Assembly (NCBI GenBank): GCA_947258435.1
Contig: CAMYID010000017.1
Location: 1-64,000, forward strand
DNA: 64,000 nt
Reading direction: 5' to 3'
Source of the DNA: an uncultured Alphaproteobacteria bacterium
Lineage (GTDB): Bacteria > Pseudomonadota > Alphaproteobacteria > UBA11222
Shown: piece by piece, positions 5,214-10,566 of the stretch
How the letters are laid out: the number at the start of each line of letters is the position of its first letter
Position numbering within the stretch: the stretch's first letter is position 1
Program-made: the position numbers and the translations under genes
The notes under the pieces: generated by a model
What the model saw: the letters and a program-made list of their open reading frames with translations, nothing else
Told to the model about the DNA's origin: nothing
Database searches by the model: none

Positions 5214-7340
5214 ATGCTGAGTTTGCGCATCATAGGGGCTGGAACGATGTGGCCGGGAAACTGGATTGGCCCCCTTATCGTTGGTCTGACGTGTCTTTTG
5301 ACCGGTGTGACAGCGCAGGCGGCAATGGCCGTTCCCACCCCCAAACCTGCTGTTTCCCGTTCAAACATCGTGTCACCGGAAGATTTCTCGCGATTTGACC
5401 GCGCGCTCTTTGCGGTCCGCCGGCAGAATTGGCAGGCTGCACAACGCGTAGCGGAAAGCGCAGATGCGCCGCTGATCGCGCAGATCGTTCAGCATCATAT
5501 TCTCACCTCGCCTCACAGCCGACCCGCATTCGATACGTTGACAGCGTTTCTGCGGCATCATCCCGGCTGGCCGCAGGAACATATTCTGATCCGCAAAGCC
5601 GAAATGCTGCTGAGCGAGGAGACACCACTGCAGGTTCGCCGTAACTGGTTCAGCGCCTACCCGCCAATCACGGTGGAAGCCCGGCTGCTGGCCGCCATCA
5701 CAGCCGAACAGACAAGTCAGAACAGCGCCCTGACACCGGTGATACGCGAAACCTGGCGCACGGGCGGGTTTGGCAGCAGGACAGAGCGGCTGATTCTGGA
5801 TAATTACGGGGAATTGCTCACACAAGACGATCACATAGCGCGTGTCGACGGCCTGTTGTGGCGTGGACAGGCCGCTGCCGTGAAACGCATGTTCCCCTTT
5901 GTCAGCAAGCAGCAACAATTACTCGCCCAGGCGCGGCTTGCCCTGCATCATCGCAAACCCGGTGTCGATCACGCTGTCGCACGCGTACCGGCCGAACTCA
6001 GCACAGATCCCGGTCTTGTATATGACCGGGTCCGATGGCGGCGGCAACATGGCCGTACAGAAGCCGCACTCGATCTGCTGCGCGATCACTACACAGCCAC
6101 AGACATTGACGCGGCAATTCAGGACCGCTGGTGGCGCGAGCGGCATATCCTGCTGCGCAACGCGCTTGAGACAAAGGATTATAAAACCGCTTATAATCTG
6201 GCCGCGCACCATAATTTCTCGGCGGAAAACAGTCGCCGCCTGTTGGCAGAGGCTGAATTTCTAGCCGGCTGGGTCGCCTTGCGCTTTCTGGCCGACCCTG
6301 CCGCCGCCCTGCGTCATTTTTCGACAATGTACGAAGCCGTCAGCTATCCCATCAGCCTGGCGCGCGGTGCCTACTGGTCAGCCCGCGCCGCAGAAGCCTT
6401 GGGCGACTGGGGGGCAGCCGCACGCTGGTACCGTCTGGCGGAACGCCATCCCATAACCTTCTACGGGCAGCTTGCGGCAGCAAAGACAGGCAGCGTCCCC
6501 GATATCGCCGCATCGGCCAAAATAACGTCCGGAAGCAGGGCCGATGCCCCCCATTTTTCAATCCCGCTCGCACAGGCCACGGAGTTGCTGGAGGAAGCCA
6601 GACAGGACGCCTCTGTCAGGCAATATTACGCATCCCTGATCCGTGGTCTGACAACGGCTGAGGCATATCAGGCGGCCACCCGGTTCGCCAGCCGCATCGG
6701 CCGCCCCGATTTGTCGCTTTGGGCCGCAAAACGTGCAAGCCGCGAAGGTATCTTCCTGCTTACGGAAAGCTATCCGCTGATATCCCTGCCCGATGAAATC
6801 GGACATTTGTCGGAAATCGAACCGGCGCTGATATTTGCCGTAACGCGGCAGGAAAGCGCATTCGACACTGATGCGGTCAGCCCCGCAGGCGCACGCGGGC
6901 TGATGCAACTCATGCCCGGCACGGCCCGTCAGGTCGCGCGCAAACTGGACATATCATACAGGCCGCAATGGCTGATCCAGGATCCCGCTTACAACACCTT
7001 ACTCGGCAGCAGCTTGTTAAGCGAACATGTCGCCCGGTACAACGGGTCCTATATTCTGGCGCTGGCTGCCTATAATGCGGGTACACACCGGGTCGCACGC
7101 TGGCGCAGAGAATTTGGCGATCCGCTGGATACCGAAACCGATATTATAGACTGGCTGGAGCTTATCCCGTTCGGTGAAACCCGCAACTATGTACAACGCG
7201 TGCTCGAGGCATTGCCGTTCTACCGTCTGCAAATGGGAAGCAGCGGCAGGATATTCCGGATTGAGGAGGATTTGGCCCGTGGTCGGCAGGCCGCGAAAGA
7301 GGCACCGGTGCCGGTTCCCCGCCCCAACCGGGACAGTTGA
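5214..7340 (+). CDS. slt: Soluble lytic murein transglycosylase (Slt family)
   Basis: The enzyme cleaves peptidoglycan glycan strands non-hydrolytically in the periplasm, leaving 1,6-anhydromuramyl ends. The protein (708 aa) has an export signal in the first ~40 residues ending near AQA, a long superhelical region of alpha-helical repeats (about 60-510), and a C-terminal lysozyme-like SLT domain. The catalytic Glu is residue 547 in RQESAFD, followed by GLMQLMPGTA and AAYNAG motifs. ATG at 5214 is listed; ATG at 5247 (12 residues later, with AGGGG upstream) is a realistic alternative that still keeps the hydrophobic core but loses the Arg. Single gene. Confidence 0.92.
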   Translation: MLSLRIIGAGTMWPGNWIGPLIVGLTCLLTGVTAQAAMAVPTPKPAVSRSNIVSPEDFSRFDRALFAVRRQNWQAAQRVAESADAPLIAQIVQHHILTSPHSRPAFDTLTAFLRHHPGWPQEHILIRKAEMLLSEETPLQVRRNWFSAYPPITVEARLLAAITAEQTSQNSALTPVIRETWRTGGFGSRTERLILDNYGELLTQDDHIARVDGLLWRGQAAAVKRMFPFVSKQQQLLAQARLALHHRKPGVDHAVARVPAELSTDPGLVYDRVRWRRQHGRTEAALDLLRDHYTATDIDAAIQDRWWRERHILLRNALETKDYKTAYNLAAHHNFSAENSRRLLAEAEFLAGWVALRFLADPAAALRHFSTMYEAVSYPISLARGAYWSARAAEALGDWGAAARWYRLAERHPITFYGQLAAAKTGSVPDIAASAKITSGSRADAPHFSIPLAQATELLEEARQDASVRQYYASLIRGLTTAEAYQAATRFASRIGRPDLSLWAAKRASREGIFLLTESYPLISLPDEIGHLSEIEPALIFAVTRQESAFDTDAVSPAGARGLMQLMPGTARQVARKLDISYRPQWLIQDPAYNTLLGSSLLSEHVARYNGSYILALAAYNAGTHRVARWRREFGDPLDTETDIIDWLELIPFGETRNYVQRVLEALPFYRLQMGSSGRIFRIEEDLARGRQAAKEAPVPVPRPNRDS

Positions 7341-7386: not shown

Positions 7387-9135
7387 TTACCCTGTTGCGT
7401 TTTCTTCCTGCCGCAGACGTCGTGAAATTTCCACCGACGCATGCACGATCATCGCTTCGGTCACAATGCCTGCAAGCTGCGCATCGTCCTCGTCATTGAG
7501 CACCGGGATCGTCTCCCCGACAAAGCCCGCCATTCCCTCCATCGCCTCCCAGACGGTTGTCTGCAGCGAAAACACCAGCTGCGGTGCCGCCACATGCGCA
7601 GAAACGCTCTCTTCCCGCGCCTCTGGCCGATCGCCAAGCGCCAATAGCTGACCTGCCTGCAACACACCCAGAAAACGATTATCCTGCGCGATCACATATC
7701 CCTCGCCCGCATTGCGCTCCCCCATCATCCGTTGCGCCTGCCGAATGGTCATATCAGGGGCAAGCGCCACAAAATCGGTTTGCAGATATTCGCGCAGCCT
7801 GTGCTGCTGCAACAGGATCATTTCACGCCCCTGCGACAGATCAATTCCCTGCTGCAACAGTTGCACATCAAATAAAGAACGACCGAAAAACCGACCCGCC
7901 ACAAGATTAGCCAATACCACACTGACCATAACAGCAGTTGTCAGTTCATAATTGCGTGTGAGTTCGAACACGATCAGGATCGTCGTCAGCGGCGCACCGA
8001 CCACCGGGCTTGTCACCGCCGCCAAACCGCAAATGGCATAAAAAGCCGGCACGGCCAGATCACTGCCAAGCGTTGCCGCAGCGGCCCCGCCGACAATAGC
8101 CCCGAAAAATGTGCCGATAAAAAGCGCGGGCGCGAATACGCCCCCTATCCGGGCATAACCGGCGCAGATCGCGGTGGCGAGAATTTTGGCAATCAGGATC
8201 AGCAGAAGCTGCGCCATGGGAAAGCCGTCCGCCACGATTACCGACTGCATCGGCCCGATGCCAAGCCCGGTCACCTGCGGCACACCGAGCGCGATCACCC
8301 CAAGCAACAGCCCCGCAATCCCCGGCTTGAGAGAATCATGCAGCGGAGTTTTATCGGCAAGCGCTCCCGCCTGCAGCACGGCGCGCATGCAAAGAAGCGA
8401 AACAACGCCGCCGAACAGGCCGATCACGACAAAACCGCCATAAGCGACAGGGTGCGCCCCGGCTTCGAGGGCGACAAAGAACAAAGGGGGTCTTTCGAAC
8501 AACCAGAACGAAACCAGATAGCCGGCAGTGGCGGCAATCGTCACCGGCGCGAAAGCCCGCAGTGAATAATGCCGCAGCACAACCTCATGGGCGAAAACCA
8601 CCCCGGCGATGGGCGCGCTGAAAACAGTTGCGATCGCGGCAGCCACGCCGCAGCCAAGCGCCACTGGCCCGGGCAGACGAAAATCTTCCCGCAGCCATTT
8701 ATCGACCCGCCCAAGCACGCCGCCAATCGTTGCCCCCAGATGCACCAGCGGGCCATATTGCCCCGCCGACGCCCCCGCGCCCAGCCAGATGAGACTTGAG
8801 AGTGCGGTGAAGATTCCGTTGCGCAGGGGTATTTCACCCTTGCCAAGCTGCGCCAGCTCAATCACATCGGCAGGCCCCTGGACGCGAGCGCCGTCTATCA
8901 ACCGCCGCATCTGTCCCGCGACAAGCCCTCCCGCAACCGGGACCATCAAGATCGTCAGGACCGTTGACCAGTCGATCTGTCCACCGGTCCGCCAGGCCCC
9001 CGGCAACAAAAACCGGTTGAGATAGTTGATGGCATCCACAAAGAAAACAGCACAGAAAGCCGTAACAAGGCCAATGGCAAGCGCCGCCCCGCTGATCAGC
9101 AGAATACGCATGATCATCTGCGAAATATCCGGCAT
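7387..9135 (-). CDS. ClC family chloride channel/transporter with C-terminal CBS pair
   Basis: The 582-aa integral membrane protein has the ClC fold (about 10-430) and two CBS domains (about 445-575). The motif at the N end of helix F reads GQYGP, so Tyr127 replaces the gating Glu (Glu148 of E. coli ClC). The helix H motif reads AHEVV, so Val185 sits where the internal proton-path Glu203 normally is. The GSGIP motif is also replaced (VQGPAD). The GGVFAP motif is kept. Losing both glutamates is a mark of uncoupled channels rather than Cl-/H+ exchangers; this is inference from family knowledge. It is a single gene converging on slt. Confidence 0.9.
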   Translation of the reverse strand: MPDISQMIMRILLISGAALAIGLVTAFCAVFFVDAINYLNRFLLPGAWRTGGQIDWSTVLTILMVPVAGGLVAGQMRRLIDGARVQGPADVIELAQLGKGEIPLRNGIFTALSSLIWLGAGASAGQYGPLVHLGATIGGVLGRVDKWLREDFRLPGPVALGCGVAAAIATVFSAPIAGVVFAHEVVLRHYSLRAFAPVTIAATAGYLVSFWLFERPPLFFVALEAGAHPVAYGGFVVIGLFGGVVSLLCMRAVLQAGALADKTPLHDSLKPGIAGLLLGVIALGVPQVTGLGIGPMQSVIVADGFPMAQLLLILIAKILATAICAGYARIGGVFAPALFIGTFFGAIVGGAAAATLGSDLAVPAFYAICGLAAVTSPVVGAPLTTILIVFELTRNYELTTAVMVSVVLANLVAGRFFGRSLFDVQLLQQGIDLSQGREMILLQQHRLREYLQTDFVALAPDMTIRQAQRMMGERNAGEGYVIAQDNRFLGVLQAGQLLALGDRPEAREESVSAHVAAPQLVFSLQTTVWEAMEGMAGFVGETIPVLNDEDDAQLAGIVTEAMIVHASVEISRRLRQEENATG

Positions 9136-9324: not shown

Positions 9325-10566
9325 ATGTCACACCCTGCTGTCGAGATGATCGACTATCCGCTGATCGACTGTGATCAGCATTATTACGAGCCTGACGATT
9401 GTTTCACTCGGCATATTGCGCCTGATTTCCGTGACCGGGCGATCACCGTTGTCCGTGGGCAAAGCAAATTTGCTCAGGTTCATTTCAAGGGCGAGCGCAT
9501 CGGCTTCTTCAGCGCACCGCCCGGTGAACATGCCGGCGAACCGGGCTCACTGAAGGCTTTTTTCCAGAATCCTACCGGCGGCGGCGGACTGACCAGCGGC
9601 AAGACCGTCTCCTGCTACGACTTCCCCGAATCCATGGACCGCGATGTGCGGATGAAACTGCTGCGCGAACAGAACGTGCAGGCGACAATCATACTGCCAA
9701 GCCTTGCAGTCGGGGTGGAGATGGCGCTACGCGATGACGGGCCTGAGACCGTCTTTGCCAATCTGAGCGCCTTTAACAAATGGGTCGCCGAAGATTGGGG
9801 ATGGGATTATCAGGATACGATCCTGAGCTGTGCGATGCTGTCGCTTGTGGATATCGATCTGGCGGTCGCCGAGCTTGAACGCGTGCTGAAGGAAGGGGCC
9901 AGGATCGTGCATCTGACTCCGACCCCGGTTCTGGGGCGCTCTCCCGCGGATCCGCATTTCGATCCGTTCTGGGCGCGCTGCGAGGAAGCGGGCATTCCTG
10001 TTGCCTTCCACCTTGGCGATGCCGGATTTGAGGAGCTTTACTCGACTGTATGGGGCGAAAAGGCACGACCGCAACATCACCGTATGTCTGCTTTTCAGCG
10101 GGTCATCAGCTTTGCCGAACGGCCGATCGTCGACACCATGGCAGCGCTTGTCATGCATAATCTGTTCGGTCGTTTCCGCAAGCTGCAGGTTGTTTCCATC
10201 GAGAACGGATCATCCTGGGTCGCACCGCTTCTGAAGAAGATGGATGCGACGGTACGGCTTGTCGAACCGCGCGATTTCACCTTCGGCCCGATCCATGACC
10301 GGCCACGCGAAATTTTCAGGCAGCATGTCAGCGTCGTCCCCTTCCCCGAAGATAATCTGACCGATCTTATCGCTGCGATCGGTCCTGAACGGGTACTGGG
10401 CGGATCCGACTGGCCGCACCCTGAAGGGCTCGCCGATCCGCGCGAATTTGCAGAAGGGCTGAACGGGCTGTCCTATGAACAGGTGCGCAAGGTAATGCGC
10501 GGCAATGCCGCCGCCCTGCTTGGCCTGGCAGACGCCGTGCCGGCAACCGTGCAATCGGCGGGTTGA
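9325..10566 (+). CDS. Amidohydrolase family protein (ACMSD/amidohydrolase-2 type)
   Basis: The 413-aa protein has the metal-dependent TIM-barrel hydrolase or decarboxylase pattern: an N-terminal DCDQHYYEP metal motif (about 15-23), a central FHLGD His (about residue 232), and the C-terminal GGSDWPHPEG motif whose Asp binds metal. Many such proteins act on aromatic or cyclic acids or as lactone or carboxylate hydrolases in catabolic clusters; the substrate cannot be read from sequence. No clear ribosome site is seen before the ATG. A CaiB CoA-transferase gene follows 119 bp downstream on the same strand and may share its pathway. Confidence 0.85.
   Translation: MSHPAVEMIDYPLIDCDQHYYEPDDCFTRHIAPDFRDRAITVVRGQSKFAQVHFKGERIGFFSAPPGEHAGEPGSLKAFFQNPTGGGGLTSGKTVSCYDFPESMDRDVRMKLLREQNVQATIILPSLAVGVEMALRDDGPETVFANLSAFNKWVAEDWGWDYQDTILSCAMLSLVDIDLAVAELERVLKEGARIVHLTPTPVLGRSPADPHFDPFWARCEEAGIPVAFHLGDAGFEELYSTVWGEKARPQHHRMSAFQRVISFAERPIVDTMAALVMHNLFGRFRKLQVVSIENGSSWVAPLLKKMDATVRLVEPRDFTFGPIHDRPREIFRQHVSVVPFPEDNLTDLIAAIGPERVLGGSDWPHPEGLADPREFAEGLNGLSYEQVRKVMRGNAAALLGLADAVPATVQSAG

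Follow-up and report, generated by a model that had tools for sequence, protein, structure and literature searches.

Can a ClC protein that carries tyrosine in place of the gating glutamate still couple anions to protons, or does it form a passive anion pathway? The question is raised by a clc gene in a 64,000-nucleotide stretch of DNA from an uncultured alphaproteobacterium of the UBA11222 lineage (contig CAMYID010000017.1, positions 1 to 64,000), the whole of which is called the window here. The window protein (Table 1) matched the Pfam Voltage_CLC family at E=1.9e-70 (238.2 bits against a curated cut-off of 24.8) over profile positions 2-345 of 346, which places it in the ClC superfamily, and its C-terminal region matched the CBS domain at E=1.9e-9. 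The top NCBIfam match was NF002505 (ClcB-like) at 265.5 bits, under that model's cut-off of 482. Structure prediction from two sequences only gave a pLDDT of 37.1.

The gene is the sole ClC detected in its 2.9 Mb genome. It lies between two genes named by eye, a divergent amidohydrolase-like gene on its 5' side (9325-10566, plus strand) and a convergent lytic-transglycosylase-like gene on its 3' side with its end at 7340, and this order is conserved in a contig of the same genus (L032). The homologue from that genus (L003/L032) is 83% identical to the window protein and also has tyrosine at the gate. This copy was the only relative retrieved in the scan of the genome collection, and one scan of a viral collection returned zero relatives.

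Table 1. Position of the clc gene and its landmarks in the window
Feature	Position	Strand	Basis or remark
clc gene, 582 aa; ClC with a Tyr gate and a CBS region at the C-terminus	7387..9135	minus	ATG at 9135, stop ends at 7387
Voltage_CLC transmembrane domain, residues 70-413	7897..8928	minus	Pfam
GQYGP, residues 125-129; Tyr127 codon 8755-8757, at the ClcA Glu148 position	8749..8763	minus	alignment
Glu184-Val185, at the E. coli ClcA E202 and E203 (Glu_in) positions	8581..8586	minus	alignment
RVQGPAD, residues 84-90, at the GSGIP motif position; Q86 = S107, P88 = I109	8866..8886	minus	alignment
Phe422, at the Tyr445 position	7870..7872	minus	alignment
CBS domain match, residues 521-567	7435..7575	minus	Pfam
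C-terminal tail RLRQEENATG	7390..7419	minus	in relatives, an overlapping solute-binding-protein gene has its start codon in the tail DNA; ATG absent in the window (AAC)

To assign the gate and filter residues, the protein was aligned with E. coli K-12 ClcA (NC_000913, L033). Tyr127 fell at Glu148, Val185 at Glu203, Glu184 at Glu202 and Phe422 at Tyr445, and V85-Q86-G87-P88 took the place of G106-S107-G108-I109. This bears out the residue reading of the first-pass annotation, which had put Tyr127 at the gating glutamate and Val185 at the inner one. As for its concern that another glutamate might occupy the gate, the acidic residue following E101 in the stretch 1-430 is D145; there is no Glu or Asp between them, and thus no alternative glutamate substitutes at the gate. 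The window protein therefore has Tyr127 where exchangers carry the gating glutamate of GREGP, and Val185 at the internal glutamate, a mark of exchangers to which exceptions exist. It shares the absence of a glutamate gate with CLC-K-type channels.

The other arguments of that annotation did not distinguish the protein from its relatives. It had cited the joint loss of both glutamates, but the inner position was already nonacidic in Glu-gated relatives, where 99 of the 106 rows have V, L or I and only 7 have Glu, and we rejected joint loss on this ground. The missing GSGIP motif is common to Glu-gated sister rows as well, and CBS domains are in general not diagnostic. Like the Tyr-gated proteins, the Glu-gated proteobacterial sister ClCs have the ClC fold, a nonacidic Glu_in, the E202 equivalent, RxxGxADVIE in place of GSGIP and mostly Phe at the Tyr445 position; they differ in keeping GREGP where the Tyr-gated proteins have GQYGP and a set of co-changed residues. 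Judged from these alignments, the gate tyrosine is the one feature among those cited that sets the window protein apart from Glu-gated relatives. A nonacidic inner residue was widespread in the larger group before the outer glutamate was replaced in one clade.

The extent of this clade was examined in a survey of ClC ORFs that covered the relatives and the stronger matches in 385 genomes drawn from the class. Among the 124 distinct ORFs, which include E. coli ClcA and one plasmid protein, the gate residue was Glu in 106, Tyr in 16 and Ala in 1, and was absent from 1 fragment. In a tree of 91 rows thinned from the 124, with the gate and inner-glutamate columns removed from the alignment, the 16 Tyr rows lay on one side of a single branch (SH-aLRT 100), corresponding to one gate change. 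A second tree (76 of 179 rows), again leaving aside the gate columns, contained a 36-row clade of 35 Tyr proteins and 1 His protein (SH-aLRT 99); both trees were made by a quick method without bootstrap. The window protein has the gate tyrosine and lies inside the supported clade. Sampling 398 genomes across the phylum extended the set beyond the class: families f205 and f201 contributed two GQYGP proteins apiece, and there were also one GRYGP protein (G472) and one GQHGP protein (G566). More Tyr proteins came from the order of G217 and from G537's family. The signature GxYGP (x = Q, L or I) was present in 7/7 loci in f205 and in 30/30 loci read in the order of G217, the latter being the 30 top-ranked of 71 matches from 69 of 136 genomes. 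Members of the clade occur in many families of Alphaproteobacteria and in some beyond it.

Sequencing error or gene decay was rejected as the source of the substitution, since the tyrosine recurs in the same-genus copy and in many independent genomes and the dN/dS ratio between the window and L032 genes was 0.092 (dN 0.099, dS 1.08). Tyr127 is the mark of a conserved, single-origin clade under purifying selection and not an isolated mutation. Other gate variants were seen in the survey. The GQHGP protein (L198/L219) has a His gate within the Tyr clade; the GRYGP protein (L195/L218) fell outside it, at a poorly defined place, in the second tree and is a possible second origin. A single ClC of the Glu-gated group has an Ala gate, GRAGP (L140, in the 1.2 Mb genome G067). 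Further loci (L016, L018, L020, L133, L135, L141, L142 and L143) form a distinct ClC group that keeps the gate Glu and has G(M/L)EA(A/G)Y replacing GREGP.

Columns that changed along with the gate were sought by comparing 53 Tyr rows with 104 Glu-gated rows (first set) or 108 (second set); Fisher values from this comparison overstate certainty, as rows within one family are non-independent. The 108-row set was picked partly by columns 88, 129 and 185, and column 88 was judged from the 104-row set only. The gate column itself was among the most different. Next to it, position 126 changed from R147 to Q in Tyr rows, and at position 88 (I109) Pro had a weight of 0.95 in Tyr rows against V/I/M/L only in Glu rows. 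Position 188 (P206) was Arg in 52/53 Tyr rows and 8/108 Glu rows. At the D54 position, 93/108 Glu rows had R and most Tyr rows a hydrophobic residue; at the A189 position, 101/108 Glu rows had S and 48/53 Tyr rows G or A. A simulation study of E. coli ClcA describes D54 and A189 as contacting or stabilising protonated Glu_ex (PMC7274781). Phe at the Tyr445 position was found in 49/53 Tyr rows, yet also in 90/108 Glu rows, and Glu184 (E202) was invariant in both groups. Two columns of the CBS region, F538 and G540, were almost invariant in Tyr rows. Tyrosine at position 293 (ec1 F317; window residues 291-296), present in 106/108 Glu rows, was lost in Tyr rows, such that it is gone where the gate acquired Tyr.

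Several of the co-changed residues are titratable, which may permit another proton route. Position 423, beside the Tyr445 position, was D or E in 52/53 Tyr rows and mostly H, T or Q in Glu rows; position 183 (I201) was His in 43/53 Tyr rows against 12/108 Glu rows; and position 96 was His or Gln in Tyr rows, with His in 38/53 and Gln in the window protein. Asp423 and His183, with His or Gln at 96, could thus replace the glutamates and keep the protein an anion/H+ exchanger of altered mechanism. We consider this quite unlikely. Known coupling requires a protonatable residue at the outer gate, and tyrosine carries protons poorly at physiological pH. PMC3519907 speaks on both sides, as it describes antiporter homologues without a dissociable Glu_in but also reports that E. 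coli ClcA with a nonprotonatable group at Glu_ex no longer transports H+ yet still moves Cl- in an uncoupled manner. A study of CLC-1 (PMC6019066) further describes CLC-K as inert to protons owing to its missing glutamate gate. Because of these two precedents, we favor with moderate confidence the reading that the window protein is a proton-uncoupled, passive anion pathway in which Tyr has permanently replaced the gating glutamate.

In this proposed mechanism, the lack of a protonatable carboxylate at the outer gate would leave anions uncoupled from protons, and the anion, probably chloride, would move down its electrochemical gradient. Tyr127 would then be a neutral outer gate able to form hydrogen bonds, and the CBS region could provide a cytoplasmic regulatory input. 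Such a pathway would not be expected to behave as a fast channel. PMC6019066 states that CLC channels have small polar residues at the EcCLC F348 and I356 positions, unlike transporters. The Tyr clade has I/L and V/I at these positions and the window protein A325 and V333, which is transporter-like; the small polar residues are absent, and a fast channel is thus not predicted. The protein may be a slow uniporter, a channel or a sensor. The first-pass proposal of a bacterial chloride channel accordingly divides in two, with an uncoupled anion pathway as the best reading of the tyrosine and a fast channel of the eukaryotic type not supported at the F348 and I356 positions. By alignment, transporter-type residues at both channel pore positions count against a passive anion pathway to some degree, and the bulky Tyr could block the pore.

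Comparison with characterized ClC proteins gave partial likenesses. E. coli ClcA (CLC-ec1), a Cl-/H+ exchanger, resembles the window protein in its Voltage_CLC domain, alignable filter motifs and E202, and differs in that the window protein lacks equivalents of Glu148, Glu203, Ser107 and Tyr445 and carries a CBS region. CLC-ck2 of Citrobacter koseri reportedly shares a nonpolar residue at Glu_in and an atypical selectivity motif but is said to retain Glu_ex and to be an antiporter. The CLC-F fluoride/H+ antiporters have atypical filter motifs, as does the window protein. They keep a gating Glu, given as E118 in PMC12035849, where the window protein has Tyr127. Animal CLC-K channels are similar in having no glutamate gate and a nonacidic Glu_in; they differ in having Val where the bacterial protein has Tyr, and the channel-type pore positions were not seen in the latter.

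Gene neighbourhoods were compared for 16 loci with Tyr-ClC and 38 with Glu-ClC. Most of the loci spanned 13 to 19 kb; two of the Tyr loci were about 7 kb long and one Glu locus was 11 kb. Flagellar proteins adjoin clc in 9/16 Tyr loci and 0/38 Glu loci (Fisher p about 2e-6, kinship ignored); two Glu loci with a CheB-like match only were excluded from the flagellar count. FliG was present in 9/14 Tyr genomes of the class draw against 227/385 overall, from a list read by eye, and clc was inside a flagellar cluster in 8 of the 9 FliG-positive Tyr genomes. By eye, 31 of the 38 control genomes with Glu-ClC also have FliG, and clc-flagellar linkage was found in none. The co-occurrence with flagella at the genome level is therefore unremarkable, and physical linkage is what stands out. 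Genes for FliD, FliS and flagellin are the typical neighbours of clc, those for FliE, FliF, FliG and sigma-54 activators lie close by, and in the order of G217 FliD and/or FliS lay within 1.5 kb in 29/30 loci (among the best 30 of 71 matches). Plasmid pOA238_118 of Octadecabacter arcticus 238 has an annotated clc, with the protein accession WP_015497669.1, after fliD within a large flagellar cluster. Clusters of the FliD/FliS type with a Tyr clc were recorded at L069-L074, L147, L148, L222-L251 and L257 (NC_020909.1).

The linkage is not obligatory, as clc is kept in Tyr genomes without FliG. The Tyr loci of f205, f201, G472 and G566 had no flagellar cluster. In the window genome, a flagellar cluster lies at another site (L220) with no ClC in it, and no FliD match was found in that genome.

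A second association was found in the subclade of the window protein, where 10 genomes carry a gene for a secreted SBP_bac_8-type protein whose start lies within clc or at its end: seven of f205 (G537, G504, G878, G930, G931, G933 and G934), two of f201 (G731 and G458) and G282. The SBP_bac_8 assignment was made by Pfam in 3 of the 10 genomes and by similarity in the remainder. The overlap measured 14 nt in the four junctions read of f205 and f201 and in O. arcticus, and 4 nt in G282 in the reading that yields a full protein. In O. arcticus, the ORF downstream of clc had no Pfam match; it aligned over 85 columns with the binding-protein profile (hhalign, E 4.8e-6, probability 86) and with L252 (phmmer 5.5e-5), and from these matches it is probably a diverged member of the binding-protein family. 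The binding-protein gene was absent from all 38 Glu loci, and among the neighbours identified in the loci read, no ABC permease gene lay directly beside the clc-binding-protein pair. The clc-binding-protein overlap lies downstream at L214, L215, L216, L217, L067 and L252-L256, which could represent a binding-protein-linked ClC.

This association bears on what the protein carries. Tyr might mark a different substrate, such as a larger or organic anion, nitrate or sulfate, which the periplasmic binding protein would deliver in some lineages; the overlap with an SBP_bac_8 protein gene in sister lineages would fit, as would the alteration of the gate, S107, I109 and helix-H positions. We regard this as rather unlikely, since the window genome and its same-genus relative (G000, G001) keep clc with no binding protein detected at E<=1e-10, and among solved structures the one closest to the binding protein (8jv1, E 7.4e-59) binds spermidine/putrescine, a cation ligand. 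The window clc and its same-genus copy have neither a flagellar nor a solute-binding-protein neighbour; such neighbours are common for Tyr-ClC but not universal. The binding-protein gene may have been lost in the window genus or gained in its sisters.

Both linkages, together with the retained narrow, transporter-type pore positions, would also suit a protein in which Tyr plugs the pore and little or no anion is conducted, with the pore and CBS region sensing an anion or nucleotide in concert with flagellar clusters or the binding protein. Against this, the pore-motif positions are strongly conserved, with G125, Y127, G128, P129, G163, G331, G332 and P336 invariant across 12 clade rows, and we hold a sensor role to be improbable. 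A doubtful but more far-reaching possibility is that the periplasmic binding protein controls or feeds the Tyr-ClC anion pathway, which itself works together with the flagellum. If so, the ligand-bound periplasmic protein would open or supply the ClC, and the uncoupled anion current would shift membrane potential and with it motor output or export. O. arcticus would then have the full set, with fliD, clc and the binding-protein gene arranged consecutively; one alphaproteobacterial order would have kept the flagellar half, f205 and f201 the binding-protein half, and the genus of the window only the ClC.

Taken together, the data show the Tyr clade to be a variant of the known ClC family with a likely proton-uncoupled function, and its members are good candidates for an anion pathway that operates naturally in bacteria without protons. 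To our knowledge, all prokaryotic ClCs that have been assayed are proton-coupled exchangers, and we know of channel-like behaviour in the E. coli ClC only after mutation of gate and pore. A natural, conserved clade without the gating glutamate offers wild-type proteins for asking whether bacteria use uncoupled ClC pathways, what the role of a tyrosine gate is, and why clc travels with flagellar or binding-protein genes. In the open-licence literature searched, we did not encounter the Tyr clade, its flagellar linkage or the clc-binding-protein overlap.

The C-terminal tail of the window protein was also considered as a possible trace of the binding-protein partner. At the site of the partner-gene ATG, the window sequence reads AC-G (AAC, not AAT). 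We rejected the tail RLRQEENATG as proof of a relic operon with the binding protein, as EEN or EEH close to the C-terminus also occurs in 39/117 Glu-gated rows, and by this comparison the tail may simply be conserved protein.
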